A stretch of 64,000 nt of DNA from Lonicera japonica (taxonomy: Eukaryota; Streptophyta; Magnoliopsida; Dipsacales; Caprifoliaceae). The stretch lies in contig CM038467.1 of assembly GCA_021464415.1 (NCBI GenBank), positions 49,767,309 through 49,831,308 on the forward strand. Direction: 5' to 3'. Shown in pieces: positions 289-63,541 of the stretch. The first letter of the stretch is position 1; the number at the start of each line of letters is the position of its first letter. A program made the position numbers and the translations under genes. The notes beneath the pieces are model-generated. The model saw only the letters and a program-made list of their open reading frames with translations, ran no database searches and had not been told where the DNA came from.

Positions 289-1900
289 ATGGCCGATGGA
301 CGCGAGAATCAAGAGACAGATCAGAGTCTAGCCGAGGCGTCTACAGCTCAGCCAACTTTAGCCGAGATGCATCGTTTACTAATGACCGTCAGCATGAATT
401 TAGCAAGTCTCACGACCGAGCAACAAGGTACCCGAATCAGAGTAGAAGAGTTGTCAGCCGAACGAACTGCACCACCGGGGTTTGAATGACTACCACCGAA
501 TCGGGATCAAAATCAAGGGCAGTCTTCACAAGTGCTTCCCCCGGTCCAAAGAACCAACCCACCACAAACGGGCCCCGTCACAATCGGTCCCATTCAAACC
601 GATCCCAACAATCAGAATCAATGGGCCCCAGATTCAGGCCCCACTTATCAACAACAAGAGCCACCCATCGTCTGGCCACAACCCCAACCGGGCCTTGATC
701 CCCAATACCAGCCTTGGCCACAAGTTCCCGCAAGGCCTATTCCACCCCCGGCCCCAGTAGCCCCTCTTAATGAGTACCCAGACATCAACCGACTCCGGGC
801 AGTGTATGCAGAATTGGTTATAACTCGGGAACAGCCCGACGAGGTATCAAGAGAGAGTGAAGAAATGAAGAAACTAAAGGAGCAGATGAAGGTTCTGCAA
901 AGGGGGATTTCTCTAATAAAAGGAGCAGACGAGATTACAGACATGAACGCCTTCTCCCTCTACCCAGAAGCAAGATTACCCCAGGGATTCAAGCTCCCTT
1001 CCATCACCAAGTTCACAGGAACCACACCCCCTAAAACTCACCTACAATCCTACATCAGGTCCATGCAAGTGTCCAGTTGTGGAGAACCGGAACTAGCTCA
1101 AGCCTTTCACATGACTCTCACGGGGGCCGCCCTGAGATGGTTTTTTGATCTAGAGAGACACCACACCAAGACTTAGGGAGACATTGTCAAGGAGTTCATG
1201 AATAAATACGGGTCCAACGAAGATTTGGAAATTACTCGCAAACACCTGAAAATGGCCAAGCAAGGCGAGAAAGAAAGCTTCAGCAATTTCGTCACACGCT
1301 GGAGAGAGATGGCCTCCCAAATGTCCAAGCGGCTCGATGAAGAAGAGCAGTTGGAGATCATACAGAAGAATTTCACTCCAGCTGTATTGAGTTGCATGTG
1401 AAAGCATGTATTCCCACACTTCAGAGCCCTGTTAAGCATGGGGTCACAAGTAGAGGAAGAACTGGCCAAGAAGGCAGAGATCGATACCAAGAAAGCCTCG
1501 TACACGGGAGAAAGACGGCCACTTCAACCGTGAACCAACTAAGCTCCTACCCATATCAACAAAACCCATTTCAACAGCCACAACAAGCACCTCCGATGAG
1601 TTGGCCCGCATAAGGAGACTTCTGCACCCTTCCCACTACCCTGGTCAAAAGCCTGGAACTACTCCGAAAGGCTGGACTAATCACTCCACTCAACCCACGC
1701 CCCCCACCAAACCCTATTCCCAACACCTGGAGAATGAATGAGAATTCTGCATACCATCAGGCCGCGGGCCATGACACGGAACGCTATTTGGCCCTCCGCC
1801 ATCGTATACAAGACTTAAATCGAAGCTGGCACCATTCCCGCGCCCGGTGGGCCAAATGTTACTAACAACCCCCTTTCCAACCATGCTCCACCTGCGGAAA
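289..1900 (+). pseudogene. gag: gag of element A (decayed)
   Basis: The capsid/nucleocapsid precursor that packages element RNA. ATG at 289 opens a Gln/Pro-rich N-terminus; the Retrotrans_gag core lies at about 960-1400 and includes the typical stretch MAKQGEKESFSNFVTRWREM. In-frame stops are TGA 487-489, TAG 1174-1176 and TGA 1399-1401, and a frameshift follows near 1530. The nucleocapsid motif near 1745-1785 has the Tat-type form (YHQAAGHDTER), but the first and last Cys appear replaced by Ser and Tyr, so zinc binding is probably lost. The sibling element at 55350 keeps C-x2-H-x6-H-x4-C at this place. Stops are one transition away from CGA or TGG. The family assignment is firm; the exact gag/protease boundary is not. 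Confidence 0.82.
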
Positions 1901-1938
1901 TTAACGCCTTAACCATTGATGAAGAAGGCTTTGATCCC

Positions 1939-3264
1939 GTGGGACTCATTCGAGATGACCCAGCCTACAAGTCACCCGCTGTACCGCCAGAAAGGGCTCA
2001 AGTTGCACCAGGTCTCAATCCGATAATTGACCAATGGATGGCTAAGATTAATTTCCTACCTAGGCAGGGTTTAGGAAAGGCCAATCAGGAAATCTCACAA
2101 CCACTTATAATCAAAACCAATCCTGAAAAATCTGGGATAGGATGGACCCAGGATAAGAAGAAACAATCATGGAAGCCCCGAGGCCTTCCCAAGGAGACAA
2201 TCTGTATGACAGAGACCTCCCCCAAGACTTTTAGTTGGTCGGCAGAACCAGAACCATCAGAAACCTCAGAGGGATCAGACCCAGCATCCTTTTGGATACA
2301 GCAAATTACCCGTTCAGGAAGGGTATATTAGCCACCACCGATGGATGCCGAGAAAGCACCTCTTCTTAAGGAAATAGGAGAGGATCGAGTACTGGAACAG
2401 TTGAAGAAAACCCAGGCACACATCACCATTTGGGGTCTCCTGGTTGCCTCCAAACCTCACAGGACCGCCTTCATCAAACTCCTAGATGAGGCCGTCATAT
2501 CACCAGATTCCACGCTAGAACAACTGCCAAACATGATTGGGTCACTTACAGTCCAAAGAAGTCTGTCATTTTTAGATGAAGACTTATCTCCACTAGGAAA
2601 GAAACACAGTCTGGCCCTCCATATTACTGTTCGGACCCGAGGAAAAATTCTGCCACAAGTCCTCATTGACAATGGGTCAACCATAAATGTATGCCCTTTG
2701 AAGACCGCCAGATGTCTGGGTATCTTAGATTCAGAGCTTTCTCCATCAGCTGTAACCGTCAGGACCTATGACAACACTAGGAGGGCCGTTCTGGGCTCTC
2801 TAAAGCTCAATCTCATGGTCGGTCCCAAAAACTTCCCAGCCGACTTTCAAATCATAGACATCCCCTCCAGTTTCAACCTCTTGTTGGGAAGAGAATGGCT
2901 ACACGACATAGGAGCACTCCCCTCCTCTTTGCACCAGAAGGTCAAAATACCATTCGAAGGGAAGATAATCACCATCCAAGGAGATCCTGAAAGGACCTTG
3001 ACGGATTTAGAATTACATGTCTTGGGCATCGGGAGTCAAAGCATAGAGCTGGGAGGCTTTTCTTACGAGCTTCAAGTGCAAGCCCTCACCACCCAGAGAA
3101 TCGAGTATCTTCCCCTTGATAATATCCCCGGTCTCAGCACCAAGATCACAAATATGCTGAGAATGATGAAATACTTACCTGGAGCCAGTCTGGGAATGGG
3201 GTAGCCAGGATTACTTCAGGCCTTAGAATCAGTGACGAGGCATGAAAAAGAAGGGTTGGGGTAC
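1939..3264 (+). pseudogene. G-patch / aspartic protease / G-patch segment of element A
   Basis: Polyprotein segment that matures Gag and Pol. A G-patch-like module at 2035-2145 shows QGLGK and a closing GIGW. The retropepsin follows, with catalytic LIDNGST at 2661-2681 and a hydrophobic FNLLLGREWL stretch at 2872-2901. A second G-patch-like stretch spans 3163-3264, ending EGLGYQ. TAG at 2329-2331 separates the first G-patch from the protease in the same frame, and TAG at 3202-3204 lies inside the second. G-patch modules usually bind RNA or DEAH helicases; some retroviruses carry one after the protease. Element F repeats the same order, which supports a designed arrangement and not chance similarity. 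Confidence 0.75.
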
Positions 3265-4002
3265 CAACACACCGAAGAAGACAACCAAGAGAAAAGGGAT
3301 CAAGGATATCAGTATCCGAGTTTTAGCTCCCTTAATGGATTTTTTGTCAAAGAAGGGGAGGACTTCCCTTTTTGCGGCTTTCAGGAGCCATGGAGAAACA
3401 ACGACAGAGATAACCTTCCAGGATGGGAAATCTTCTATGAAGAGGACCTTTATCTCAAGGAAAATGTTATACACAACTTCTCTACCAAGTTAACGATCGG
3501 GCCAAGAGAAGAAAATGAAAATGAGAAAGATAAAGAGGAAGAAATGATCGGAGATCTTTTCGACGTCATGGCTCTAGGGGATGATGAGCCAAGAGACGAC
3601 CCTGTACACTTAATACACGCTGATCCATATTACCAGAAAAAGGGGGGAAAGAGTGAAATTGTAAAGGTAAGAGATAAGAGCGAGGGTAGGGCTAAAGAGG
3701 AGTCTCTTCTGGATTTACTTTTTAAACTTGTACCTGTAAGTACTGTTATTAATGAAGAAGATTCTATTTTGCGGTATCCTGTTAGTTCTGATTCTGTAAT
3801 TGCTTATATGGAAATAGAAAGATTAAATGAACACCCTGAATGGGAAGAACAACGCATACAAAGCGAAGAGGGAGATACTCTTGTGATTAACTTCGGGGCG
3901 AAAAAAGAAAGGAAAGAGGTCCGTATTGGGGCAAGTCTAAGTGAGACAGAAAGAGAGGAATTCACACAAACTCTGAATGAGTACGTGGATATCTTTACCT
4001 AG
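3265..4002 (+). pseudogene. protease-RT linker of element A
   Basis: Open reading from 3232 to 4002 encoding an acidic, Glu/Lys-rich linker between the second G-patch and RT. Part of it (NGFFVKEGEDFPFCGFQEPW) recurs in element F at about 57040-57100, so it is a conserved part of this polyprotein and not random. It ends with the conserved EYVDIFT motif that normally precedes RT. The ORF stops at 4000-4002 because the RT N-terminus has been deleted at that point. Confidence 0.6.
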
Positions 4003-4490
4003 ATCTCAATAAAGCTTGCCCAAAAGACGATTTCCCATTACCCAACATCGATTTGATAGTAGACAATACCGCCAACCATGCCTTGAAGTCGTTCGTAGAC
4101 GGTTTTGATGGGTATAATCAGATCAAGATGCACCCGGATCACCAAGAAAAAACAGCATTTATCACGCCATGGGAAACATATTGCTACACCGTTATGCCAT
4201 TCGGGCTGAAGAATGCCGGGGCAACATATCAGAGGGCAACTACAGCTATTTTCCACGACATGATCCACAAAGAAGTAGAAGTATATGTGGACGATATGAT
4301 AATCAAGTCAAAAGAGAGGGAAGGCCATGTACCAGCCTTACGGGCCTTTTTTGACCGACTCCGCCAGTACCAGATGAGACTCAATCCGCAGAAGTGTGTG
4401 TTCGGGGTAACCAAGGAAAAACTCCTGGGCTATGTCGTCAGTAAAAAAGGAATTGAGGTAGACCCTGCCAAAGTTCGAGCTATCTAAGAA
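4003..4490 (+). pseudogene. reverse transcriptase of element A, N-terminally deleted
   Basis: RT copies element RNA into DNA. The frame resumes at DLNKACPKDDF (4003 on), shifted by one base relative to the preceding EYVDIFT. The roughly 80-90 residues that normally lie between these motifs are missing; they are present in element F at 61480-61730. The active-site box YVDD is intact at 4284-4295. An in-frame TAA at 4488-4490 (possible CAA origin) ends this segment and the frame continues directly after it. The loss of fingers-region sequence would inactivate the enzyme. Confidence 0.9.
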
Positions 4491-5110
4491 ATGCCCGAGC
4501 CTCGTACCGAGAAAGAAGTCTGGGGATTTTTAGATAATTTACAGTACATCAGCAGGTTCATCTCTCAGCTTACTCAGACTTGCGAACCTATCTTCAAACT
4601 CCTAAGGAAATCTTCACCAGGAGAATGGGACGATCAGTGCCAAGAGGCTTTTAATATAATCAAAGACTACCTCTCCAAACCCCCAGTATTAGCCCCACCA
4701 CAGACCGGACTGCCACTAATTCTGTACCTAACCGTCATCGATTCGACTGTAGGGGCCATGCTAGCCCAACATCTGACCAATACACGAAAAGAACAGGCCA
4801 TCTATTACATTAGCAAGAGACTGTCCCCATTTGAGATAAACTACACGCCTTTGGAGAAATCATGCATCGCTCTCATCTGGGTAACACAGAAACTACGGCA
4901 TTACATGCTAGTTTTCCTGATCATCCTAGCATCACGAATTGATCCGCTGAAATACCTATTCGAGAAACCAACTCTCTCGAACCGTATGGCAAAATGGTTA
5001 TTCTTGCTCTCCGAATTCGACATCACCTACATGACCCAGAAGGCAGTCAAAGGCAAGATCATAGCTGACTACCTAGCCCACAATCCAATATTGGGGGACA
5101 TGTTAGAAGA
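4491..5110 (+). pseudogene. RT connection and RNase H domain of element A
   Basis: Continues the RT frame after the TAA. It contains the thumb/connection stretch YISRFISQLTQTCEPIFKLL and the RT-linked RNase H, in which the family motif ILYLTVIDSTVGAMLAQ and the PLEKSCIALIW stretch are clear. RNase H degrades the RNA template during cDNA synthesis. No stop interrupts 4491-5396. Confidence 0.88.
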
Positions 5111-5148
5111 AGCCGAATTCCCAGATGAAACTATTATGAATGTTGAGA

Positions 5149-5537
5149 TCAATGAAGACTGGAAATTGTACTTTGACGGGGCCACCAACCGAAATGGGAA
5201 CGGGATAAGGATCCTGTTAGTCTCCCCGGACCAAACTCACTTCCCGGTATCATATCGTCTAGACTTCTTCTGCACCAACAACATGATCGAGTATGAAACC
5301 TGTATAATTGGATTAGAGATTGCACTCCAAAGAGGTATAAAGAGAATACAATTATACGAAGATTCGGCACTAGTAGTCCATCAAGTCCTAAAAGAATGAA
5401 AGATCAGAGATGAAAAATTAGTCCCTTACCTCGCTCGACTAGAGGATGTTGCAGGAAGATTTGAGCATTCAGAGTTTTACTATGTCCCTAGGTCACAAAA
5501 CAGTTTTGCTGACGCACTAGCAACCCTGCATCTATGA
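5149..5537 (+). pseudogene. second (archaeal-like) RNase H of element A
   Basis: An extra RNase H after the normal one, diagnostic for Tat elements. The expected acidic residues are visible in LYFDGATNRNG, MIEYETCI and the later EDSALVV motif. TGA at 5397-5399 interrupts the domain (the family usually has Trp here). A single-base loss near 5530 shifts the frame between DALATL and the integrase-side sequence. The element F copy near 63570 is more damaged. Confidence 0.85.
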
Positions 5538-6913
5538 TCGATATCCCAGAGGGGATGGAAGAAATAACTCTTACAATACAAAGAAGATCAGGACCAGCAC
5601 ACTGCATGGCCCTTGAGGTAGAGAATGAAAAAAATGGGGACTCAACCACTTGGTTATATGACATCTGGAACCTGTTGAAAAATCATCAGTATCCCGAGCA
5701 AACAGACAAGAGAACGCGGGTCACACTCAGGAGATTAGCATTAAGGTTCATACTTTGTGCCGGAAGGCTGTATAAGAGGAACTACGACGGGACCCATCTC
5801 CAATGTCTCACTGAAGAAGAATATGTCAAAGTGATGGATCAGATACATGGGGGCGATTATGGACCTCATATGAGCGGCCATACACTTGCCCGCAAAATCA
5901 TCAGACAAGGTTATTACTGGTCCACCTTACAGAACGACTGCGTTAACCACGTACGCCATTGTCACAAGTGTCAAATCTACGCTAAATCTCAAAAGTTTCC
6001 TCAGAAAGAATTGTACAACATGACTGCTCCCTGGCCTTTCGCAACCTGGGGAATCGAAATCATTGGGAAGATTTCGCCTAAAGCCAGCAACGGCCATGAA
6101 TTCGTACTAGTGGCCATCGATTACTTCACCAAATGGGTAGAGGCCGAGTCTTTCCAAACCCTTGACGCCAGAAAAGTTGCCCGATTCATCAGACGAAATA
6201 TCATCTGCCGGTATGGGGTCCCACACGAGATCATCTCGGACAACGGCACCCACTTTGAAGGAGAGGCTAATACAGTCACGGAGGAATACGGTATTACCCG
6301 ACATAGATCTTCGCCATATAGACTACAAACCAATGGGACAATTGAGGCCGCTAACAAGAATCTGAAGAATATCCTAAGCAAGATGACCGACACCTGTCGA
6401 GACTGGCCCAAAAAATTGCCATATGCATTGTGGGGATACCGCACTGCCGAGAGGGTCTCTACCTGGACAACCCCATTTTTCCTTACATACGGGATGAAAG
6501 CAGTCCTCCCTGTCAAATTAGAGGTCCCCTCCCTCAGAGTGACGCTAGAGAATTAAGTTAATGAGCTGGAGTGGGTCCAGGCACGTTATAACGAGCTGGC
6601 CTTGCTAGATGAGAAGAGATTGAGAGCCGCATACCACCACCAAGGGTATCAGAAGAGAATCGCCTGAGCATTTAACCAGAAAGTAAAAACTCGGGGTATC
6701 AATGAGAACGACATCGTGTTGAAAGAAATTCGAGAACCAGCCAGAGACCCAAGGGGAAAGTTCGGGCAGAAGTGGACAGGACCATATATCGTCAAAGAGA
6801 TTGATACAGGGGGTGCTGCCGTACTTGCCGACTTAGACGGACAATTATTGCATTCACCAGACAACATGGATCGACTGGAGAATACTACCAATAGATGTAA
6901 CATGTATAGATAA
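5534..6913 (+). pseudogene. integrase of element A
   Basis: Inserts element cDNA into the genome. The HHCC zinc-binding part lies at about 5850-5975 (H...H...CHKC). The catalytic core follows with SDNGTHF and, 35-odd residues on, the Glu in GTIEAANKNL. The first catalytic Asp, usually in WGxDxIG, reads Glu here (codon 6056-6058), which is expected to impair catalysis. The C-terminal domain continues in frame to 6913 past TAA 6554-6556 and TGA 6666-6668 and contains the conserved GKFGQKWTGPYIV stretch. No chromodomain is visible, as expected for Tat. Confidence 0.9.
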
Positions 6914-7112
6914 GAACTACGTAAACCTGAGCCCCAACTCAAAATTATGTTTTATGAAAAATCAAAAGGGGAACGTAGGCAACCTGAGAAGTGACTTCAG
7001 GCACGGTTTAAACATTGTAAAAAAATTTATTTTCCATAAACAGTCCTTCGTATATTATTAAGGTGGTTCAGAACACCAGAAGTTACAAAGGAGATACAGC
7101 ATACAGAAAAAC
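6914..7112. other. spacer between pol and antisense gene 1
   Basis: Two hundred bases between the convergent ends of pol and the antisense DUF7745-like gene. A block around 6970-7000 (aacgtaggcaacctgagaag) is matched in reverse complement at 50650-50675 in element E. That match places the pol deletion of element E. Confidence 0.6.
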
Positions 7113-8369
7113 CTAATCCCTAGGGGTTGGCCAAGCAGGGTCCTCCTTGGCCAAATCAATTCGAGCCTCATCCAGGATCTGGTACGCAAATACGATGCTC
7201 TCCTCGGTGGGCTTAGAATCCATAAACCGAAACCACTCCATTTGGAAAGGATCATCAATCAGCTCCCCTTCCAGAGACCCCCAACAAGAACGGATGATGT
7301 CAGCCTGGAGGGGCCGGGTAATACCAAAATGGGCATAATTGAACTGACGAGTTTGTCGAGCACGCCACATTCTCTCCACTGATAAAGAAACATGCGGGGT
7401 CACAAACTTAGACTCTGAAGAGAAGTTATTCAGGCCGAGGGGAATGTCCTAAGGAACATTGAATTGCCGAAGAAGACGTCCTGCGATATAAAAGGAGGTG
7501 AACCAGAGCCCATGGAGCTGAACGTAATTCTGCCCCCCGGTACTAAGCACCATCGCCCTCAGTTTCCACCAAGGAATGTTCCACCGAATGGCCCAAAAAT
7601 TCTCCGAAAACTACAATGTCCAATCAGAGGAAGACATGGTCAAAGCACCAAAGAGGGGACGGCGGAAAAAGTGTGTCGGGTTGTCTAGCCGAACCCCATT
7701 GGAACCCATCGATCGAAAACGCTCTAACAGCCACATGTATAGCAAATGCGGGCTTCCCCTGAAGAAGGGTGAAGCTCCCCTTTGAAGATCATCTAGGCCA
7801 TTTAGAGTTTCTGCAAGAACAATAGGCACTATAGACTCCCCATTCCTAGCATGATAAATCAAACTTAGAATAGTCGGATCAACACGAAAATAGCCCGTCA
7901 CCAGTAGCATATCAAAAATAAGACAGATCAAGGTCGCCGCAGTACGCCCCACGCTATAAGAGGCTTTCTCTTCATAATGATGAAAGAACCTCACCATTTT
8001 GTGAAAGTCAAGAAGCCCGTCGATAATAAAACCATCACAGGCCGCTTGGGGAATGGCTAACAGAGCGATCAGCATATCTGGAGGACCAATCTCTTCTATG
8101 GGAACAGCCATCGGGAGACGAACATCAGAACACAACAGCCAGGAAAACTCCTTGTAAGTCGGGCAAAGCTCATCTAGCCCGAAATGGAAAAGATGATCCG
8201 CAGGGCTCCAGAAATACAAAGCACCTAACAAAAAGGAAAAATCTATAGGACGATGGCACCAGCCCGCTAAAGGACTGAATGCACCAAAATTCAAGCCGTT
8301 TTTAGAAGATATCAAAGCATCTCGGGCTTTAACATAAGAAAAATCAGAATTTGTGCGATAAGAAGACAT
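7113..8369 (-). pseudogene. antisense gene 1: DUF7745-like protein
   Basis: A single 419-codon frame on the strand opposite pol, broken only by two TAG codons (7611-7613 and 7449-7451). It resembles the plant DUF7745 family found in retrotransposons: ELCPTYKEFSWLL at residues 67-79, VLAETLNGLDDLQRG near 180-195, LLYMWLLERF soon after, then a WNIPWW block and LHGLWFTSFYIAGRLLRQFN. The function of the family is unknown. The start ATG at 8369 sits about 40 bp downstream of a TATA box and a palindromic operator pair, so the gene has its own promoter. Both stops could come from CAG codons. The family call rests on remembered motif similarity and not on a search. Confidence 0.72.
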
Positions 8370-8408
8370 TTTGGGAAAGGTGTGAGGATGAAGGAAGGAG
8401 GATAGGTG

Positions 8409-8490
8409 TATTTATAGCAAAAAAGAGGGCCCTATACCTGTTTGTCGCACGACAAACCTATATCCAGGAGGGATTGTCGCCCGACAATCC
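8409..8490 (-). promoter_or_regulatory. promoter of antisense gene 1 with two palindromic operators
   Basis: TATAAATA on the minus strand at 8409-8416 lies 40 bp before the ATG. Upstream are two palindromes with 2-bp centres: GTTTGTCGCACGACAAAC (8440-8457) and GGATTGTCGCCCGACAATCC (8471-8490). Their centres are 32 bp apart, about three helical turns. The same core occurs at the PMD gene and LTR promoters. Confidence 0.7.
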
Positions 8491-8812
8491 TATTTGGTGT
8501 GCCTCTTTTTTGGTCTTTCTTACACGTTAGAGTCTTTTTGCCAAAAGAATCACTTTTGAATACATTTGTGCTCACTATGTTCTTTTGCAGGAACCCTAAG
8601 TACCACCGCGTTACAAGGTATGGCTCATAAATTACTAATTCATATAAATTATATTTTTTATCACAAATAAGGAATAAATATATGTTACCAACACAAATAA
8701 AGATTTTTCATAAACCCAATAAAAGAACAGTTTTCAAAACAAAATCTTTGTCTAAATATCTAAAAATAAAATTACATATATGTCTGAACTAACTAAATGC
8801 AGAAAAAAAAAG
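8491..8812. other. spacer between the two antisense genes
   Basis: AT-rich, non-coding. It should hold the 3' end of the PMD transcript and the upstream side of the gene 1 promoter. No convincing polyadenylation signal was recognised. Confidence 0.4.
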
Positions 8813-9181
8813 TTAGTCTATCCGAGCGCACTTCGATACGCTCCCACTATCACCCGAACCCTCCTCCGGAGTAGGATCGACCGCTGGGACATCTGAATGA
8901 GAAGGAATTGCTGCCTGAGAGGGCCCCGTTGACTGAACCAGAGTTGTAAGGCGGATCACTGAAGACCGTGAACGCTTGGAGGTCCGACTACTGCTCCTCC
9001 GAGACTCTGTTCGAGCGCAGGAGGAGGACAGTGGGTCATCCACCCGTAGAGACATGTCGATCTCCCTCTGGTAATCGTGCATGTACGCCGTGGGATCCCG
9101 ACCAACGAACTGGAGGAGGTTCCAGTTGTAGAGGTACTGGGCATGAAGAGCTCCCAGGTTTGTCGCACGAACACTCACCCG
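8813..9181 (-). other. PMD gene exon 5 (terminal)
   Basis: Follows a pyrimidine-rich TGCAG acceptor (9182-9186). It encodes 122 residues with a basic Ser/Arg cluster (RSSSRTSKRSRSS) and ends at a stop at 8813-8815. No internal stop. Confidence 0.72.
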
Positions 9182-9270
9182 CTGCAAAATGACATAAGAG
9201 AGGGAATTAGCACATTTTTAAGATAAATAGATATAAAAGAACAGCAGAAGGAAGAAAAGAAGGGACATAC

Positions 9271-10377
9271 CTCATCACCCACGCGGCCACCCAGATAATC
9301 AAAAGTATCCTCGGGTAAAGGATACTCGGGCACGGTATAGCAACGAAGACCAGCACCAACGTAAGTAATATCCCGAGGGAGGGACGAGATGTCAACCAGA
9401 GGAATGGGTGGACCCACCGGTACCGCCGCAGAAGTAGACCCACCCTCCTCACGGATCGGGAACAGAGGAGGCCAGGAAGAAGAACCGCTAAGACCAGAAG
9501 AGCTGGCCGGAGGGCCCATAGTAGCCAATGGAAGAGGGGTCAGTGTGGCATAGGTACGGACACCTCGAGGATCAGCAATGGCAGTCGCTCTCAGAGGCGG
9601 GACCCTGCTAGAAGGAGTGGCTGCAGCAGCAGGAGGGGTCCGCCCAAACTGCTCATAATCGGCCCCAAAGTCCTCAGGCTCCTAAGACCGCTCAGAAAAA
9701 GATGCTTCCCCCCTCTCAGCAGCCTCAGCAGCATAAAAAACTACCCCCAGGGATACCAACGGACCGGTAGGAAACTCGAAACCCTCGGCATGCTGCTCCT
9801 CTCTAGGCGTCGTCTGAGGAGGCTGCTCTGGAACCGCCGCTGCCTCCCCTCCCTTAGGTCTATTGTCTCAACCCTCGGCAGCAGCAGGGACGTCCCTCTC
9901 TCCCTCGGGGTCATCGTCATCAGAATCTAAAATATTGTCCCTCTGATCAGGGACAGGCGGCAGCTGACCGGGGACCGTCCTGGACAAATGGGTCTGTCCT
10001 CGTATATAGTTGGGATCGCCTCCCAACGCCCTGTACCTCTCATAAAAAACCCGTCCTCGAGTCCCCTTCCGCTCCCTCATCAAGTAACGGGCAGCGAAAG
10101 CAGCGTAGTCTCCCTCCTCGGTGAACGCCTGAAAACCAAGCCCGTCAACCAGGGCCTGCACCGTCATCGGGTAGATCTTACCCGTTCGCCTCATCAGAAC
10201 TGGCAGAAACAAAGGAACTCGGGGCCACTGGGCCGGTGTATGTTGGCGAATAACCCTCTTGCCCAAATAGAAGTGAAGGTCGTACTCATCCCTGATAAGC
10301 CGCTTGGTCCTCGAGGCGGTCAGAGCGCGGCAGTATCCAAAATGGAGACCCAGATCACCCCAAGGGGCCCACTCAAT
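9271..10377 (-). other. PMD gene exon 4
   Basis: Starts with IEWAPWGD after a TTTTTAG acceptor. It holds the end of the PMD, then an acidic run (DSDDDDPEGERD) and an Ala/Pro-rich tail. TGA 9868-9870 and TAG 9682-9684 are in frame. Ends at a GTATGT donor (9269-9270). Confidence 0.75.
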
Positions 10378-10463
10378 CTAAAAAGAGAATAAAATTTTAT
10401 TTCAGTTATTTATATTCTTTTTACTATTTATTTATTGAAAAGAAAGAATACTAAGATATTTAC

Positions 10464-10637
10464 CTGCTCCTCCAGTAGGTCATGGACGGCAGCAGCTCCG
10501 GTCTCCCGAGTCCGGTATACATAGGGAGCCTTGTAGTTCCCCGCAATGAATCGACGGAGAAGGGGAAACTGATCCTCGTTCTCAATGAGGAGATCCACCT
10601 GGGCACGACCCAGACGAGTGTAAGCCACAAACCAATT
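10464..10637 (-). other. PMD gene exon 3
   Basis: Fifty-eight open codons between a TTTTTCAG acceptor (ending 10638) and a GTAAAT donor (10462-10463). Continues the PMD. Confidence 0.72.
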
Positions 10638-10729
10638 CTGAAAAAGAAAGAAGGCAAAAGAATGTCAGCAACAATCAGCAGATAATATGTAAAGGATTGA
10701 AGCAAAGATAAGGGGACAAAAGTATATAC

Positions 10730-11395
10730 CTCCCACAGCAATGAGAAGCCTTTAAGGTTCAGGGCTAAGTGGTGAGAAACCTGGTCCATGGCATCATATA
10801 AGACAGCCAGAATAAAGCCCCCCCAGTCGTAGTCAAACATGATGCTAAAGTCCCGAAGATAGGGCAGCCACCAGAGATGGGCCGTATCCCCCCCACGAGC
10901 CTCGAACAAATCATGGAGCATCAGTAAGAGAAAGACGCAAGCATACTGACGTGCCTCCTGACGGGTCATCGGCGCTCCGGAAGCAACTAGCCGGGCCCTC
11001 TCTATAGCCAGGCGCGTAACTAAAACCGCCCAAGGGATCGTATCGCTCGAACTCCGTCGCTCAGGAAACCACCCAAGTGCACCCACGATGCCCTCTGCCG
11101 TCAGACGCAAAGGGACATCAATCTGGATAGGGACCCCCTGAAGGAATCCTGGTCAGAGCAAATAGGTCCAGGGGGTCATCGTCATCTTACCCCAGCTCCA
11201 ATGGAAGGTATGAGTAGTATCCCACCAATGGGAGGCCAGCGCTGACACCAAAACCACCGCCCTAGATACCCGCTCCGGGAGGGCGTCAAACAGAAAACCA
11301 AAAGGAGTCGCAAGGAGCAACTCCTATACAGGGGCCGGTGCCTGTCGCCACTCTAAAAAAATAGTGTTGGGGGAACCCCAACCTCGGCCAACCCA
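10730..11395 (-). other. PMD gene exon 2
   Basis: Starts after a TGCAG acceptor (AG at 11396-11397) and ends at a GTATAT donor (10728-10729); 222 codons carrying the first half of the PMD. TAG 11324-11326 and TGA 11153-11155. Around the TGA the neighbouring frame fits the family better for a few codons, which suggests two small compensating indels. Confidence 0.75.
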
Positions 11396-11431
11396 CTGCA
11401 GGCAACAAAATGGAGATGAAGATGTAAATAC

Positions 11432-12994
11432 AGGGTTATAGGGGTAAGTTATGTAATTTTCCAAAACCTGAGGGTACTTTGGTGTAATTATGAGAGTTAT
11501 AGGGTTATAGGGGTAAATTATATAATTTTCCAAAACCTGAGGGTACTTTGGTGTAATTATGAGAGTTATAGGGTTATAGGGGTAAATTATGTAATTTTCC
11601 AAAACCTGAGGGTACTTTGGTGTAATTATAGAGTTATAGGGTTATAAGAGTAAATTATGTAATTTTCCAAAACCTGAGGGTATTTTGGTGTAATTATGAG
11701 AGTTATAGGGTTATAAGGGTAAATTATGTAATTTTCCAAAACCTGAGGGTACTTTGGTGTAATTATGAGAGTTATAGGGTTATAAGGGTAAATTATGTAT
11801 TTTTCCAAAACCTGAGGGTACTTTGGTGTAATTATGAGAGTTATAGGGTTATAAGAGTAAATTATGAAATTTTCGAAAACCTGAGGGTACTTTGGTGTAA
11901 TTATGAGAGTTATAGGGTTATAGGGGTAAATTATGTAATTTTCCAAAACCTGAGGGTACTTTGGTGTAATTATGAGAGTTATAGGGTTATAGGGGTAAAT
12001 TAAGTAATTTTCCAAAACATGAGGGTACTTTGGTGTAATTATAGAGTTATAGGGTTATAAGAGTAAATTATGTAATTTTCCAAAATCTGAGGGTATTTTG
12101 GTGTAATTATGAGAGTTATAGGGTTATAAGGGTAAATTATGTAATTTTCCAAAACCTGAGGGTACTTTGGTGTAATTATGAGAGTTATAGGGTTATAAGG
12201 GTAAATTATGTATTTTTCCAAAACCTGAGGGTACTTTGGTGTAATTATGAGAGTTATAGGGTTATAAGAGTAAATTATGAAATTTTCGAAAACCTGAGGG
12301 TACTTTGGTGTAATTATGAGAGTTATAGGGTTATAGGGGTAAATTATGTAATTTTCCAAAACCTGAGGGTACTTTGGTGTAATTATGAGAGTTATAGGGT
12401 TATAGGGGTAAATTATGTAATTTTCCAAAACCGGAGGGTACTTTGGTGTAATTATAGAGTTATAGGGTTATAAGAGTAAATTATGTAATTTTCCAAAACC
12501 TGAGGGTATTTTGGTGTAATTATGAGAGTTATAGGGTTATAAGGGTAAATTATGTAATTTTCCAAAACCTGAGGGTACTTTGGTGTAATTATGAGAGTTA
12601 GTGGGTTATAAGGGTAAATTATGTATTTTTCCAAAACCTAAGGGTACTTTGGTGTAATTATGAGAGTTATAGGGTTATAAGAGTAAATTATGAAATTTTC
12701 GAAAACCTGAGGGTACTTTGGTGTAATTATGAGAGTTATAGGGTTATAGGGGTAAATTATGTAATTTTCCAAAACTTGAGGGTACTTTGGTGTAATTATG
12801 GGAATTATAGGGTTATAAGGGTAAATTATGTAATTTTCCAAACTTGAGGGTACTTTGGTGTAATTATGAGAGTTATAGGGTTATAGGGGTAAATTATGTA
12901 ATTTTCCAAAACCTGAGGGTACTTCGGGGTAATTATGAGAGTTATGGGGTTATAAGGGTAAATTATGTAATTTTCTAAAGAAACCTAAAGGGTA
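11432..12994 (-). repeat. 69-bp minisatellite with 413-bp higher-order units, inside PMD intron 1
   Basis: About 22 copies of a 69-bp unit containing gagttatagggttata and ttttccaaaacctgagggta. Variants (a 68-bp unit with atagagttat, a ttttcgaaaac unit and a gtatttttcc unit) recur in the same order every 413 bp (six units minus one base), for example at the 11628, 12041 and 12454 starts. The array lies wholly between exon 1 and exon 2 of the PMD gene. Its long minus-strand reading frames are a by-product of the 69-bp (23-codon) period. Confidence 0.93.
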
Positions 12995-13146
12995 TCACAA
13001 GTAAAAGTATGTGTTTACTAAAATCGGACGTTATTCTTAGGCAGACATGCATACTAACATAACAATTATTTTAAATACATGCAGGAAATGACATAAATAA
13101 CAGAACAAATAAATACACGAAAGGAAGGAATTTCAGGAAAACATAC

Positions 13147-13392
13147 CAGAGACCGTCGATGGATCTCACGAGAAACAGGCTCCATCAAGAGCCAAGGAAT
13201 ATCCGGGATTGGAGCAGCCCGGGTAACATCTCGGTAGACCACTGCCCGACCGCGGTCCACCCAGTCCTCACCATACCAGTCCAGGTCCGCCCAGTCATCA
13301 TGGTGAGGGCTGCACCGGAGAACGCCCTGGGCATCGGTAAAGGTGACCTCCTCCTAGTCACCCTCTAGTCTGTCTGGCTATGCAGGATCCAT
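13147..13392 (-). other. PMD gene exon 1
   Basis: Eighty-two codons from the ATG at 13392 to a GT donor at 13145-13146. TAG codons at 13378-13380 and 13354-13356. Encodes an Asp/Trp-rich stretch (DWADLDWYGEDWVD). Confidence 0.65.
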
Positions 13393-13436
13393 CCGGGTAT
13401 GAGAGAAATAAGAAAGAAGTCGAAAAAGTAGAAAAA

Positions 13437-13512
13437 GCGGTAGGGCTTCCGCGCTTGAGAGAAGAGAGAAAGAGAGAAAGAGAGCTAGAGAGAGAAAGAG
13501 AAAGGAGAGAAT
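13437..13512 (-). repeat. pyrimidine-rich 5' UTR tract of the PMD gene
   Basis: A GAGA run on the plus strand, hence CTCT on the PMD sense strand, between its TATA box and ATG. CT-rich leaders are common in plant promoters. Confidence 0.55.
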
Positions 13513-13538
13513 GAGGTGGAATGAGCTCAGCAAGGGGC

Positions 13539-13621
13539 TTATATATTGGATCAGTTTGTCGCGCGACAAACAGTCTCATTGTCGCGCGACAAACACCTTT
13601 CCACCGAGATGTTGCTCGACA
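13539..13621 (-). promoter_or_regulatory. PMD gene promoter with palindromic operators
   Basis: Minus-strand AATATATAA at 13539-13547 is preceded by GTTTGTCGCGCGACAAAC (13554-13571, perfect 18 bp), TTGTCGCGCGACAA (13579-13592, perfect 14 bp) and a weaker TGTTGCTCGACA (13610-13621). Centre-to-centre spacings are 23 and 30 bp. The ATG is about 150 bp downstream of the TATA box. Confidence 0.7.
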
Positions 13622-14524
13622 TTTGGTCCCCTCCCTTGACTTTTTGACCTTTATCTCATTTTTGTCTCCAGCAAGAATACTCCAGAGAAGCAGTTTTCGA
13701 AAACCTTTCTGAATACCGCACACCCATGATGAAAATTCAAGGAAAAGATTTCCAAACCATCTTTCCGAAAATGCGAGAACAAAATACAACGGTTAAAGTA
13801 GTCTCTGATCTCCCAAGAAGGACCAAGATCATCAATGAGAAAAAGCAAAATATCAGAATAAGATGGGAATAGAAAAAATTGAAAAAGTAGAAAAGAGAAA
13901 GAACCCGTATGAGCGCCTAGAGTGAGCAAGAGAAACAGAAGTGCAAAGTGACAGGAAGAACCACACCAAAAATGATAGCTAGGCCAAAACTGGCTCAGGG
14001 CTTCGTTTTGATTGAGTAAGTCTCTTGATCATGACAAAGGGATAAAAAGACTCTTGGTCAAAAACAGAGAAGGCCGGGAAAAGTCTTTCCCAAAAGAGGG
14101 AGAAATAAGGGCATCGAAAAACAGAAAACGATGTGGGCCCACCAAAAAGTAAGAACTAAAGACACTAGAGATCAGAGATTGACCTTTCATGCAAAATTTT
14201 CTTTTCAGCACGATACAAGAAGAGATGACTTGGAAATTTTTTGAATCATCACCTTGCGAAGAACAGAAGAAATCCGAAAACTGCTTTCCGAAAGAAGTAA
14301 CCTCCCTCGAGGGAAACATAAGAGTAAAACTTCAGAAAGATACGGGAAAATGAACATCCGGATAGAGATTAAAACTCCGAGAAGCCCTTTTTACTCTCTC
14401 AAAATTTCTCTCTCTCACTCTAGCAGTCTAAGAGAGATAATCAAATTCACCAGAGTACAACACAAAGCCCTCGCCAGAGGCAAAAAATACTCACAAAAAG
14501 CCCTCCTAGAGGCAAATTTTCTTT
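13622..14524. other. 3' non-coding region of element A
   Basis: No gene seen. Blocks near 13865-13900 and 14090-14150 match element E in reverse complement at about 48600-48900, so this is conserved Tat 3' non-coding sequence. Confidence 0.6.
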
Positions 14525-14990
14525 CTTTTACAGAACAAAAGCCCTCCCAGAAAGGCAACGTGTAGCAACGGTAGTCCTCCCACCTGAGGCGAGAAGATCA
14601 AAAGCCCTCCCAAAGAGGCACAGTGTAGCAATGGTAGTCCTCCCACCTGAGGCGAGAAGATCAAAAGTCCTCTCAGAGAGGCACAGTGTAGCAATGGTAG
14701 TCCTCCCACTTGAGACGAGAAGATCAAAAGCCCTCCCAGAGAGGCACAGTGTAGCAAAGGTAGTCCTCCCACCTGAGGCGAGAAGATCAAAAGCCTTCCT
14801 AGAGAGGCACAGTGTAGCAATGGTAGTCCTCCCACCTGAGGCGAGAAGATCAAAAGCCCTCACAGAGAGGCATAGTGTAACAATGGTAGTCCTCCCACTT
14901 GAGGCGAGAAGAACAAAGCCCTCCCAGAGAGGCAAAGTGTAGCAATGGTAGTCCTCCCATCTGAGGCAAAGTGGAGCAAATGAAAGTCCT
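14525..14990 (+). repeat. 63-bp tandem array upstream of the 3' LTR
   Basis: Seven copies with a start-to-start period of 63 bp (one of 62), for example gtagtcctcccacctgaggc at 14571, 14634, 14697, 14760, 14823, 14886 and 14948. Each unit contains agccctcccagagaggca, which can fold into a short GCCTC/GAGGGC hairpin. Single hairpin motifs of the same type flank the array at about 14467, 14498, 15020 and 15042. Confidence 0.92.
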
Positions 14991-15165
14991 CGAAAGAGGG
15001 AATGAGGTAAGACAAGCCCTCTCCGGAGGCAAAACCAAACACAAGCCCTCTTCGGAGGCATTCACGAACACGTTTGCATAACACACTTCCTTAGAGTTCT
15101 TACAGGAGCCATGGACCACGGTCTCTTCCAGTCGCCTCAATTCCTTGCAACAAGGAGCTTGAGTC

Positions 15166-15174
15166 GAGAGGGTC
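15166..15174 (+). other. polypurine tract of element A
   Basis: GAGAGGGTC directly before the LTR start. The same GAGAGGGTC abuts the 3' LTR of element E on the minus strand. Confidence 0.65.
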
Positions 15175-15315
15175 TGTAGACACCTCGATCCGTGACCCCT
15201 GCAAGAACCCTAACAACCTTCGAGAAGTACTATTTTTGAAGTCCGGGACCCACCCGAGCACCCAAAACTGCTCCAAAAGAGTTTGTTGGCCAAACGAACC
15301 TATTTTTAAAGAGAA

Positions 15316-15503
15316 TTGTTGCACGACAAATCAGTATGTTGCGCGACAATCTCCCTTGTGTCGAGCGACAAACGCCTCTGAAACCAGACCATCCACCCTC
15401 TGACACATCAGTCTGTCAGAAACATCACTTCAGCCGTTTGTCGCGCGACATGGTACACATTGTCGTGCGACACATGCCCTTTCTGGGGAAGTGTCGCGCA
15501 ACA
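15316..15503 (+). promoter_or_regulatory. six palindromic operators in the element A LTR
   Basis: Sites at 15316-15329, 15337-15348, 15359-15370, 15439-15450 (perfect TGTCGCGCGACA), 15461-15472 and 15492-15503. The core is TGTCGNNCGACA with at most one mismatch per site. Centre spacings are 20, 22, 80, 22 and 31 bp. The last centre is 25 bp before the TATA centre. Confidence 0.75.
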
Positions 15504-15518
15504 TTCTTCCCCGAGCAC

Positions 15519-15526
15519 TATAAATA
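15519..15526 (+). promoter_or_regulatory. LTR TATA box
   Basis: TATAAATA in CACTATAAATAGGCC, a canonical plant TATA context. Predicted start of R near 15550. Confidence 0.75.
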
Positions 15527-16697
15527 GGCCAACACCCCCAAGGGTTCAAGACAGCAACTTGGGATTGAAGAATTATTGGCTTATATCTTATTTTCTAGTC
15601 TTTCATCAAGCATTCTCGATTATCGTCTTATTTCTGAAGAATTATTGAATCTATTCTCGACAGTCGACGTGTCCCGTCTCGGGAATCGAATTCTCGAAAA
15701 TATCTGAAGAAGGAAAAGATTATTATCGCCGGAGATCTCTCTGCCATATTATATTTTCTTTCTTATTATCATTCTCGTCTGGAAGGTAAAGAAAGTCTTT
15801 TCTAGTATTTAACATTAGATATTTGTGTACTTGTTTTACTTCTATTGTTTTGTCCACGTTTTATTTGAAAAAAACTTATTGCCAAGTTACAAATAGTCTA
15901 CTGTTTTCAAAACAAAAGACCCTGATAAAATTATTTGCAAAACCAGAAGAGTAAGTACATTATCGTCTGGATAAAATCCTATTTTCAAAACCCGGACCGG
16001 TAAAACTTACTTAGGAATTAAAAACCTGGTATATCCTATCTTTTTCATAGATTGTGATATGTCTGGTAGAACTCCCCTCAAGAGTTCTAATTCCATATTA
16101 AATTAGTCCCGATACAAGATCCGAACTTTTCCAAAAGAAGTCAGAAACCGTCATTATCTGAGGAATAATACGGGAACTTTCCCTGAAATAAAACAACCTT
16201 TTGTCACTTGTATTTGCATCTTTAAAACATTGGATCTCGGAACACAAAGGTTTTATCCCTTTTCCCGCTTTTTCCCAGAAATTAGGGTTTTCTTGACTTG
16301 AAAAGTAGTAGACTGTCAGTAAAAGCGTCCAAGTTTTTCAATATAAAATAAACATATAAGACCACTAGAGACCGAAAGGGCAGAATGGGTGCTTAACACC
16401 TTCCCAATCCGTAACATAGTTTCCGAGCCTTATAGAATCCTGGTTTCGTAGACAAACGTGTAAAGAAAGGCTTATATGTAGCCTTTTCTCTTACACAACT
16501 ATTTTGTCCGTTTTCTCATAAAACGTACTGGCGACTCTGAACGAACCCTCTCGCATCTAAAAATAGAATATAGGGACACCCGATATGGAAATATCAACGC
16601 ATAGAAGCAAATGAAACAACAGAATCCTTTCCGATGTTTCAGACTCCCAAACTAGAGGCTGAGAACCTGGGGTCGCATTTGCGGATTCTCATAATAA

Positions 16698-19565: not shown

Positions 19566-19570
<5 letters not shown>

Positions 19571-19597: not shown

Positions 19598-21788
19598 GTA
19601 TTTATGCACCAGAAAGTAATAACTAAATAAGTCTTCAAGTTTAATGGATTCTATGTCCGCGCATAATATTTTTGCTTCACAATATATATAGGGAACTTCC
19701 TCAGCCTCACACAAGATCACATGTACAAAACAATATCTTCAGCACCATGTTACATTCAACAAACCATGATAATATTATCTTTCTGGTGGTTTAAATAGAA
19801 GTATAGATTGTATAATATCTTAAGCCTTATGGTAATAACTAGTTCTGAATCACCTGTGTCTAACTTTAAAAGCCATGACGATACTATACTTATCTTAAAT
19901 AGAAAGCAAACTCTTAGGAATAGACTCTAGCTAGCAGAGCAGCACAGTCAAAACTGTCTTGCAGCAAGGCTAGACTGTCCATATATTAGATATTACATGT
20001 GATAAAACTAGTAACAATCAGTATAACCAATGAGGAATCATTGAAAAGCCTCATAGGTTCTACATAACCAAAATTATTACTCGGAAGGCTAATTATCAGT
20101 ATGATGGATGCAATATACTGAACTTGCCAAACGAATATTGAAGAAAAAAGGATCAGATACAAAGTAATGGTAATATGGCTAATTTATTTCATCAGAGCTA
20201 CTATTACATAGAAAAAAAAAATAGTGTTGCTGAAGTATTTCTAACTTTCCTCTTTTGAAGTGTTGTAATTTTAAAAGTAACATGGTGATCTAACACTCTG
20301 TATAAAGATTTGCCCAATGATCTATTCCTTATATATAAACAAAAAAGGCCTGATTAAGTGGGTTCAAGTAATTCAAGCTGCACTAAAGGATCTGTATATT
20401 TTCAAGTTAAGAAACAAATTAATATTTATATCACAAATTACTTTTCATTTTTATCATAGGTTAAACACACATACACGTGAAAACAAAAGTTTTTTGGGAT
20501 GAGCCTTGTTATGATTCAATGTCAAATTTTCTTGCTTAATTATATCATAAAAAAACCCATCTCATCTATCAATATTTTGCATTAATAGAAGATCCTGGTC
20601 AATCTATTGAGACGAAGGTAGAAATTATTTTTATTCTTTTGATCTTTTAAGAATTTCACTCTAAAAACCATTTTATTGTTATTTGACATTTTAGATGAGC
20701 AACTTAGCTAGAAAAGATATGTACACTCAAAAAGAGATAGACGAAATCCAATGTGAGTTCATCGAGTTCATTGTGGAGTATATGGAACAGTGATGAAAGC
20801 AACAATAGCATATCAAGGAGGAGGTTAATTCTGATATTGTAATATGTACATCTAGTGTTTTATAACTTAATTTGTCTATAATAGAGTAATACTTCTATTT
20901 TTCATCCGGGGATACCCGTTCTTTAGTCTTAGAAGAAAGCCTTTGCAAATTCGGAGTAGAAAAACATCGTACAACATAAACTTGGAGATTGGAAATGTCA
21001 TTCACAGATGTGTGGGATAAAAGGCAACTATCATCAATTGATATCCTAGTACACAACACAAACCTTGTTTGGTTTTTTTTTTAATTCCAAAGAGGTTGAA
21101 CTTAATTCTGAAAGTAGAACAATTACATTTAAATTGATTGATATTGAACATGCAATTGGTGGGTTGAATTTGAATTTAAAACTGAAATTATTGGATTGAT
21201 TTGAATAAGGATTTTTTGGGTTGATTTGAATTGTATTGAAATTGAATTTGGAGAGGTGGTTCCAGGATTTGTTGCTGGCAGGTTCTTTTAAAAAATGAGA
21301 TACAATCTTGTCATGTATTTGGAAAGTGTCAAAAAAGCTACTTTGATTTTTTTTGACCCGTTTTCAAATTTTATATGACTCTGGCTTATAGGACGCCTGT
21401 TTGAAAATTGCAGGTTGTCCTAAATTGACATATATGACACCTTTTAGTTGTCCTAAATTAGGTTTTCCTTGTAGTGGGTAGCCGCACGGTTGGGAGGCGT
21501 GCAGCTAGGGCGTGCGGTTGGAGGCTACGGTTGGGGCCTGCTGCTAGGGCCCAACCGTACGGCTGGCAGGGAGCCATGCAGTTGAGGGCGTGCGGCTGGC
21601 TCTTTAAAAATACCCCGAAACACCTAAAAACTCAATGGCAACATTGGTCGTAGTAGACTCCTAACGGTTTCAAAGTCAGAGTATTTCCTAACAATCTTCT
21701 ATATACATGATGACTCAAGACTTGATGTAGAATTCTTGTTTTTATAAAAATCAGATTCATACGAGAATCGTGGATTGGGGTATTGACA

Positions 21789-25141: not shown

Positions 25142-26246
25142 TCTGAGAACCCGGATCTCCGACCCATCTTTCTCGGGGTTTTTTTTGCTTTTCTTGTTTT
25201 GAAGGAGAACTTGTTTCGTAGAGTCACCAGTTTGTTTTACGAGAAAACAAACAAAAGATCATACGAAAGACCATTCGAAGAAGAACTATCTTTCATATGT
25301 TTGAAACCATAAATTTATTGGTAATTTGTTTTGCTAGGGTTCGGGAACTACGTTATAAATTGGGAAGCTGTTAGGCACTCAATTCACCCTTTCGGTTTCT
25401 TAATGGATAATTTATTTAATTCCTATTTTAGAAATCTTGCAAGTAGTTTAAATCGTTTTCAGAATAGTCCTTTCCTGATAAATTCCTTTTTAAAATAGTA
25501 TTTTGAAATCAGATTCGAGCTTTATGAGCACCTACGTATTCATTCGTAGAATGAATTCAGAGTCTCGTAGTTCCATTTATTTGGAAACTATTTTTGTATT
25601 TTGTTTTGTTTTGAAAACGTGTCAAAACGAACTTCTTCGCAAGTTATCTAATTTTCTATATTAAAACTTGTGCAATAATTAAAATCAAAAGAGTGGTAGA
25701 AAGGCGTACTTGATGCGCTTGAAGAATAAAGACTGCTTGCTTGCTTCTTTCTCTCTCTAGAACTTTCTCTCTCTAAAAACTCTCTTAATATTGATCTAAA
25801 CAGATTTTTCTCTCCCTAAAACTTATGTGCATGCTGATCCCTAAAATGAGACTCCAAGAGTCCTATTTATAGGGAAAAAATGCAGAAAAATGGCCTGGGT
25901 AACTGCGCGGCTAAGAGCCAGCCGTGCGATTGGGAGGGCTGCGGCTAAGGCGTGCAGCTAGGGCATGCGGCTCAGGCGTGAGGCTCGAAGCCAACCGTAC
26001 GGTTGGGAGCCAACCATATGGCTAGGGTATGCAGCTCAGGCATGCGGCTTGAAGCCAACCGTGCGGTCGATCCCCGTCCTAGTAAGCGAAGTGGCGACAT
26101 TGGTCGTGGTAGATTCCTAACGCTCTTGAAATCACGATTTTTCCTAACGGTCTCCTATATGCATGACAACTCAAGACTAAATGCGGAATGCTTGTTTTTT
26201 TATGAAAATCAGGTTCACACGAGAGTCGTGGATTGGGGTGTTCACA
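25142..26246 (-). repeat. 3' LTR of element E
   Basis: Minus-strand start TGTGAACACCCC at 26246 and end near 25142. A GAGAGGGTC purine tract abuts it at 26247-26255. Minus-strand TATAAATA lies at 25864-25871 with a GC-rich palindrome region upstream (25911-26070). Confidence 0.78.
25911..26070 (-). promoter_or_regulatory. palindromic operator region of the element E LTR
   Basis: A perfect 16-bp palindrome CCAACCGTACGGTTGG at 25991-26006, with degenerate copies nearby: gccgtgcgattggg (25920), ccaaccatatggc (26011) and ccaaccgtgcggtc (26055). It sits 40-200 bp upstream of the minus-strand TATA box. Related copies occur in the LTRs at 21481-21600 and 63361-63490. Confidence 0.6.
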
Positions 26247-62562: not shown

Positions 62563-63541
62563 TGTGAGAATTCGGGCTTTCGACCTATCCTTCTCGGTTT
62601 CTTATTTTTCTTGTTTTGAAGGAAAACGTGTTTTCAGAGTCGCCAGTTTGTTTTACAAGAAAATAAACAAAAGATCGTACGAAGGACAATTCAAAAAACG
62701 AATTATCTTTCGTACGTTTAAAACCAGAGATTCATTGATAATTCATTTTTGCTAGGATTCGGGAACTACGTTATGAATTAGGAAGGTGTTAGGCACCCAA
62801 TTCACCCTTTCGGTCTCTTAATGGATCATGTATTTAATTCATATTTTAGATATCTTGCAATTAGTTTGAATTATTTTTAGAATAGTCCTTTTTGGATAAA
62901 TTTAGTTTTAAAATTGTATTTTGAAATCAGACTCTAGCTTTGCGAGCGCCTACGTATTCATTTGTAGAATAAAATCAGAGTCTCGTAATTTCATTTGTTT
63001 GGAAACTGTTTTAGTATTTTTGAAAACGTGTTAAAACGGATTTTAGATTTCTTGTAAACTTAGAAAGGACTTGTTTTGAAAGCAGTGGACTTCTTTGCAA
63101 GTTATCTAATTTTCTTGATTAAAACTTGTGCAGTAATTGAAATCAGAAGAGTGGTAGAAAGATGTACCTAATGCGCTTAAAGAATAAAGACTGCTCACTT
63201 GCTTCTTTCTCTAGAAATTTCTCTCTCTAAAAACTCTCTTCCTAATGATGTAGACAGAGTTTTCTCTCTCTAAAACTTACTTGAGTGTTTCCTCCTAAAA
63301 TGACAGCCCAAGGGTCTATAGCAAGATTTCCGCCAAAAACACTTCAAAAGGGGCTAGCCGCAGGGGGTGAGGCTAGGGCGTGCGGCTCGAAGCCAACCGT
63401 GCGGCTAGGGATTGCGGTTCGGAGACAACCGTACGGCTAGGGTATGTTGCTTGGAGCCAACAATATAGCTAGGAGGCAGCCGTGCGGCTGGCTCTTGATG
63501 TAGTAAAGCGAAGTGGATTGGTTGTTGTAGATTCCTAACGC
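62563..63541 (-). repeat. truncated Tat-type LTR in element F pol
   Basis: Plus-strand end TGTGAGAATTCGGG at 62563; homologous to 25142-26120. The distal ~130 bp (TGTGAACACC side) are missing, and so are about 190 codons of element F between RNase H and the second RNase H. A deletion after insertion explains both. Confidence 0.75.

Follow-up and report, generated by a model that had tools for sequence, protein, structure and literature searches.

Putative operator palindromes at three likely promoters of a Tat/Retand-type retrotransposon in Lonicera japonica

Introduction

Some plant transposon proteins are able to recognize family-specific motif arrays, as has been reported for VANC6 and VANC21 (PMC5735166). 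In the Arabidopsis VANDAL DNA transposons the VANC21/VANC6 motifs form YAGTATTAY/AGTTGTCC-type arrays, according to the accessible parts of two reports (PMC5735166, PMC10398659). In the Retand/Tat group of long terminal repeat (LTR) retrotransposons, antisense proteins are reported to be nuclear in Grande (PMC7264820), TRP28 is predicted to bind DNA (PMC11963269) and Grande gene23 has its own promoter (Vicient 2025, PMC11963269; Vicient 2020, PMC7264820), while the role of the antisense genes is stated as unknown in the available sections of these papers (PMC11963269, PMC7264820). Here we describe a 64,000-nucleotide stretch of Lonicera japonica (assembly GCA_021464415.1, contig CM038467.1, positions 49,767,309 to 49,831,308 of the forward strand; hereafter the window) in which a plant Ty3/gypsy retrotransposon, element A, identified on the + strand by a Pfam domain scan, carries a 5-2-5 palindrome, TGTCGNNCGACA, upstream of its LTR TATA box and of those of two antisense genes.

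Compared with the accessible descriptions of VANC, the locus is similar in that a short motif forms dense arrays in non-coding DNA of a plant transposon, is rare outside the family and is replaced by other motifs in related families: within the window the arrays are largely confined to the element, and three related LTRs (LTR1-3) carry a different motif, ARCCGNNCGGYT. It differs in that the host of the arrays is an LTR retrotransposon, the motif is a 5-2-5 palindrome, and both binding and anti-silencing are putative. With the Retand/Tat elements, as far as the published excerpts describe them, it shares antisense open reading frames (ORFs) located between pol and the 3' LTR, tandem arrays within that interval and a suggested DNA-binding regulatory protein. 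It differs from them in having a probable plant mobile domain (PMD) and in that TRP28 (PF04195), the mark of Retand proper, was not matched in 14 minus-strand pieces from 7113-15061 (Pfam, E up to 10; the genes are broken and some frames only were scanned). Promoter palindromes were not found described for Retand/Tat in the accessible text, and 'palindrom' occurs in the available part of PMC11963269 in the reference list only. In Arabidopsis, too, plant mobile domain proteins, MAIN and MAIL1, are linked to a promoter motif, DOWN (PMC7156037, PMC9899485, in the portions available), but the DOWN motif as printed there for the MORC1 promoter (CATGCAGTTT) is unrelated to the palindrome of element A. 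CATGCAGTTT is not enriched in the window (3 matches at one mismatch or fewer versus 4.97 expected), and none lies at the three promoters of element A; one (21575) falls in the U3 of LTR1.

Results

The palindrome TGTCGNNCGACA occurs in the window at 11 sites with at most one mismatch, seven exact and four with one mismatch. All 11 lie upstream of three TATA-like boxes, which belong to two antisense genes and to the LTR of element A:

8409..8416, minus strand: TATA box TATAAATA of the first antisense gene, first T at 8416; first ATG 47 bp downstream at 8369
8443..8454: palindrome D1, TGTCGCACGACA, exact core, symmetric over 8440-8457
8475..8486: palindrome D2, TGTCGCCCGACA, exact core, symmetric over 8471-8490
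13538..13545, minus strand: TATA-like box TATATAAG of the PMD gene, first T at 13545; first ATG 153 bp downstream at 13392
13557..13568: palindrome P1, TGTCGCGCGACA, exact core
13580..13591: palindrome P2, TGTCGCGCGACA, exact core
13610..13621: palindrome P3, TGTTGCTCGACA, one mismatch
15317..15328: palindrome L1, TGTTGCACGACA, one mismatch
15337..15348: palindrome L2, TGTTGCGCGACA, one mismatch
15359..15370: palindrome L3, TGTCGAGCGACA, exact core
15439..15450: palindrome L4, TGTCGCGCGACA, exact core
15461..15472: palindrome L5, TGTCGTGCGACA, exact core
15492..15503: palindrome L6, TGTCGCGCAACA, one mismatch
15519..15526, plus strand: LTR TATA box TATAAATA, first T at 15519

Outside these three clusters the window has no match to TGTCGNNCGACA at one mismatch or fewer. 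Against the 11 sites observed, 60 dinucleotide shuffles of the window gave on average 0 exact matches and 0.53 with at most one mismatch (maximum 3), and 2000 shuffles of the clusters themselves (470 bp) gave a mean of 0.02 (maximum 2), which rules out a chance origin. The initial annotation had claimed eleven palindromes at exactly three places in element A, and these counts bear it out; the two examples that it quoted were found at 13554-13571 and 8471-8490, and the equality with a shuffled background that it had named as a refutation was not seen. At two mismatches the enrichment was mild (21 versus 10.3 expected, 1/100 shuffles as high), so the signal sits in the near-perfect sites. Furthermore, an unbiased tiling of the window for 5-2-5 palindromes ranked TGTCG at LTR A first, with six; there were 26 tiles with at least three palindromes, and outside tandem arrays (GGGAG, CCTCT, TGGAA) these were LTR A, the PMD promoter (TGTCG, 3) and LTR3 (AGCCG, 3). 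Judging from the positions of the TATA boxes and ATGs, the three regions are probably promoters, and each has a site 8-60 bp upstream of its TATA-like box, in stretches that make up 7.5% of the window.

The symmetry of the sites was analyzed with half-sites selected on one half only and on both strands, a palindrome counting once per exact half and a perfect one twice. A mirror half (at most one mismatch) was found at a gap of 2 for 18 of the 23 TGTCG half-sites in 7001-15530, as compared with 0-1/23 at gaps 0, 1 and 3-8, and for none of the 58 TGTCG half-sites that lie outside the clusters in the window. In addition, the base pair just outside the 12-mer, which was never selected on, is complementary in 12/20 sites of both families (p ~0.002), while the middle two bases vary. 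The central dinucleotide seems less constrained, being non-CG in 6/11 sites, than the outer CpGs, which are changed in 4/22, but the difference is weak (one-sided p = 0.04). CpG retention was not taken as a sign of selection, since the CpG ratio of the LTR is the same with the array left out (0.99) as over its full length (1.02).

The centers of neighboring sites are 32 bp apart at the first antisense gene, 23 and 30 bp at the PMD gene, and 20, 22, 80, 22 and 31 bp at the LTR, and seven of these eight spacings differ from two or three helical turns by a fifth of a turn or less. In tests chosen after the data had been seen, the mean cosine at 10.5 bp was 0.58 (p ~0.009), rising to 0.77 when the 80-bp spacing was left out (p ~0.001). 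Measured from the TATA box, the sites of the first antisense gene lie 3.1 and 6.1 turns away and the three proximal LTR sites 2.1, 5.0 and 7.1, again close to whole turns.

The 3' part of each of the three related LTRs is homologous to LTR A (best E values from 1e-14 to 4e-17); they have no match in the first 345 bp of LTR A, its U3, and lack TGTCGNNCGACA at one mismatch or fewer. Instead they carry a different 5-2-5 palindrome, ARCCGNNCGGYT, in U3:

about 17215-18088 and 21470-21790, minus strand: LTR1, split by an insertion
21480..21564, minus strand: U3 of LTR1, ARCCGNNCGGYT at 21480 and 21553, TATA box beyond the insertion at 18038
25130-26246, minus strand: LTR2
25901..26068, minus strand: U3 of LTR2, ARCCGNNCGGYT at 25901, 25920, 25993 and 26057, TATA box at 25871
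62562-63543, minus strand: LTR3, LTR start missing
63395..63489, minus strand: U3 of LTR3, ARCCGNNCGGYT at 63395, 63427 and 63478, TATA position degenerate (TATAGACC)

This second palindrome has nine matches with at most one mismatch in the 64 kb, six of them exact (1.66 expected, 0/100 shuffles as high), and all nine are in the U3 of LTR1 (2), LTR2 (4) and LTR3 (3), with none elsewhere in the window. The initial annotation had found no comparable group elsewhere in the window; this holds for TGTCGNNCGACA itself, but not for the type of site. The geometry of the second family is alike: 13/24 A[AG]CCG half-sites in the three U3s have a mirror half at gap 2 (0-2/24 at other gaps), and their spacings are near whole turns (mean cosine 0.78, p ~0.002). 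From one family to the other, positions 1 and 3 of the arms, and in part position 2, are altered on both sides together. Single-promoter unbiased tests covered the first antisense promoter, LTR2 and LTR3; LTR3 gave 0/200 shuffles with one mismatch allowed and p = 0.03 with two, and LTR2 gave p = 0.005 with two. The insertion that splits the U3 of LTR1 (18090-21470) reads CACTACAA... at both ends and adjoins the palindrome array.

The genes behind the two antisense promoters are both broken:

7113..8369, minus strand: first antisense gene, three open stretches with two in-frame stops between them
8813..13392, minus strand: PMD-type antisense gene, broken by stops

The first had been called DUF7745-like, a name that Pfam does not support at E up to 10: none of its three pieces has a Pfam match, and the first piece has no NCBIfam or PDB match either. 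The PMD label of the second rests on two colinear Pfam matches (3.4e-05 to profile 18-44 and 2.2e-05 to profile 108-192), both of them below the Pfam cut-off. This gene contains a tandem array at 11432-12979, with 22.5 head-to-tail copies of 69 bp (94% matches) and higher-order periods of 344 and 413 bp. At 9161-9172 inside it, TGTCGCACGAAC has 13 bases in common with the 8440 palindrome (GTTTGTCGCACGA), the mirror half being missing. A second tandem array, at 14532-14967 between the PMD promoter and the 3' LTR (63-bp unit, 6.9 copies), holds partial palindromes with GGGAG/CCTCT arms.

The remaining parts of element A are as follows:

1819..6900 (end approximate), plus strand: pol, frame interrupted by stops
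3981-4487, plus strand: reverse transcriptase (Pfam)
4488-5399, plus strand: two RNase H-type domains (RT_RNaseH 2.3e-20; RVT_3 1.8e-5, above its cut-off)
5513-6556, plus strand: integrase (Pfam)
15175..16693, plus strand: 3' LTR, from TGTAGACACC... to ...TTCTCATA, both ends placed by eye from LTR2 and element B

Two RNase H-type domains lie between reverse transcriptase and integrase, an arrangement known as a Tat trait (PMC9289625, in its accessible part), and antisense ORFs lie between pol and the 3' LTR. Because of this dual RNase H and these ORFs we class element A as Tat/Retand-type, a probable member of the Tat/Ogre/Retand group of Ty3/gypsy. The protease of pol gave a weak Pfam match only, below cut-off. 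A self-comparison of the window gave no match for a 5' LTR, which appears to lie outside it. The polyprotein at 1819-2331 has a weak G-patch match (E 0.013, below the Pfam cut-off), and this domain is known from plant gypsy elements, again according to the accessible part of PMC9289625. A second related element, element B (51600-64000, plus strand), has a reverse transcriptase about 80% identical to that of element A, other matched pieces being 26-65% identical, and its RNase H region is broken by the LTR3 fragment. A TGGCGACTTTGCTGGGG stretch in element B, near 51942, resembles the tRNA-Arg primer binding site that follows the 5' LTR in the Tat/Ogre/Retand group.

Wider searches confirmed no relatives. 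Among viral contigs, the motif turned up at 75 loci when searched singly and at 3 when searched as a pair. tblastn of five element proteins (E up to 1) gave nothing in these 78, and 73/78 have long open frames (at least 150 codons) over at least 55% of their length and are thus taken for phages and the like. Searches with the RNase H, PMD and reverse transcriptase proteins in viral contigs, and with reverse transcriptase in prokaryote contigs, confirmed none. The literal motif strings turned up in one unrelated paper, and these palindromes are not mentioned in a search of titles and the starts of abstracts, which took in few subscription journals and few full texts.

Discussion

A symmetric site with a fixed gap, repeated at whole helical turns beside the TATA boxes of all three units, is probably what a cooperatively binding dimer needs. 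The dimeric DNA-binding protein proposed in the initial annotation gains from this as regards the dimeric site, which is well supported by the gap-specific pairing of half-sites, the symmetry kept between families and the helical spacing. Its further proposals, that the element perhaps encodes this protein and that the protein coordinates sense and antisense transcription, are hypothetical. We give even odds to a reading in which the palindromes serve as operator arrays at all three likely promoters, bound by a dimeric and probably cooperative factor that is the element's own antisense product. A dimeric factor would occupy the palindromes at the sense LTR promoter and at the two antisense accessory-gene promoters; it could be one of the antisense products of the element (the PMD protein or the unnamed protein), and it would recognize the operators of its own family and thereby activate, de-silence or autoregulate. 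Related families keep the 5-2-5 geometry with two or three positions of the arms altered (A[A/G]CCG), which is expected if protein and operator co-evolve. In favor of a self-encoded binder we count the confinement of the sites to the element within the window, the fact that the candidate genes themselves have them at their promoters, and the re-spelled sites of the related families, as in VANC. Going further, we tentatively suggest, with somewhat less than even confidence, self-recognition in the Tat lineage: an antisense-encoded nuclear protein would bind cooperatively, as a dimer, to a 5-2-5 palindrome specific to its own family and present at each promoter of that family, operator and protein would co-diverge (TGTCG versus A[A/G]CCG), and the system would be the LTR-retrotransposon counterpart of VANC.

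Several observations weigh against a self-encoded cooperative dimer. All results come from one 64-kb window and a single copy of element A. The helical tests were a late choice, and the sites before the PMD gene lie 1.7, 3.9 and 6.7 turns from its TATA box, and the three distal LTR sites 14.7, 16.8 and 18.7 turns from theirs, distances that are not near whole turns. The first antisense promoter has only two sites in the tiling, as do some other tiles (60 tiles have two), and p = 0.03 at one mismatch and 0.835 at two in the unbiased test; LTR2 is weak at one mismatch (p = 0.07). A TATA-like box 8-60 bp away is present in LTR2 and missing in two of the three related LTRs, LTR1 (split) and LTR3 (degenerate). 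Moreover, the related arrays are not independent, because LTR1 and LTR2 have one 73-bp spacing in common and LTR3 has a 32-bp repeat (2.4 copies). Both-side changes across the two families, which count in its favor, occur in 19/100 cells versus 9.1 in shuffles (0/500 as high), a figure that arises partly by construction, because the AGCCG family was found via a palindrome search; the gap comparison of half-sites is less affected by this. Pairs with a both-side change number 3, versus 2.9 in shuffles. Lastly, a single-sequence structure model of the first antisense fragment was unusable (mean pLDDT 36), and those antisense pieces that were scanned (Pfam, NCBIfam, PDB) revealed no DNA-binding domain.

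The absence of such a domain from the scanned pieces favors another binder, a dimeric transcription factor of the host that the element has drawn to all three promoters, in the way that many LTRs recruit host factors, with a different or more tolerant host factor used by the related families. The comparison covered auxin response factors (ARFs), which bind TGTC core half-sites as dimers, prefer TGTCGG and have IR7/IR8 as their major pattern, according to the accessible part of PMC10690724. In element A the halves are mostly of the TGTCGC type, only 1/22 reads TGTCGG, and the two 6-mers abut, which is at odds with the IR7/IR8 spacing; moreover, because the related A[A/G]CCG arrays are without TGTC, one ARF-type factor would not serve both families. 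By spacing and preference, ARFs are thus an unlikely binder. Against a host factor in general stands the finding that the window has no further site at one mismatch or fewer outside the promoters, and we regard this explanation as possible but rather doubtful.

The initial annotation had named an inherited feature of one duplicated ancestral promoter as its main alternative; the palindromes would then be remnants without current function. We consider this unlikely. Palindrome-masked promoter flanks align no better than shuffles in 8/9 tests of one set and 3/3 of another. The single nominal exception, which favors common origin, is the first antisense promoter versus the LTR (p = 0.026; other scorings of that pair 0.065-0.088), and opposite-strand controls at times score equal or higher. 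Mean identity between sites of different promoters is 0.87 within the 12-mer core, 0.44 over the adjoining positions 1-3 and 0.27 over positions 4-8 beyond it. Flanks and spacers have no clear homology between promoters, and the sites either arose separately or were kept while their surroundings changed; a common origin would still need selection holding the 12-mers while their neighbors diverged. Simple tandem amplification, the way in which motifs spread in VANC-type systems, finds little support as a source of the sites: the spacers between them differ, and LTR A and the U3 of LTR2 have no tandem array, the LTR3 repeat being the only one in the three LTRs run. Finally, it is very improbable that the palindromes act in genomic RNA, as hairpins or self-complementary dimerization sites, rather than in DNA: all sites would lie in the full-length sense RNA, and 5/6 folded 24-nt sites (four of the 11 of element A and two of the related nine) form stem-loops of -7.4 to -15.2 kcal/mol, but the sixth (15436-15459) reaches only -2.9 kcal/mol, weaker than the shuffle mean, 7000-17000 has no Rfam match at gathering scores, and a location upstream of TATA boxes on both strands with helical spacing is not predicted by an RNA function.

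An operator common to the LTR and both antisense promoters offers a concrete target for finding the binder and for determining whether its effect is to switch on, switch off or counteract silencing. If the binder is self-encoded, as we favor, operators specific to each family would account for the coexistence of related elements in the same genome with no cross-regulation.

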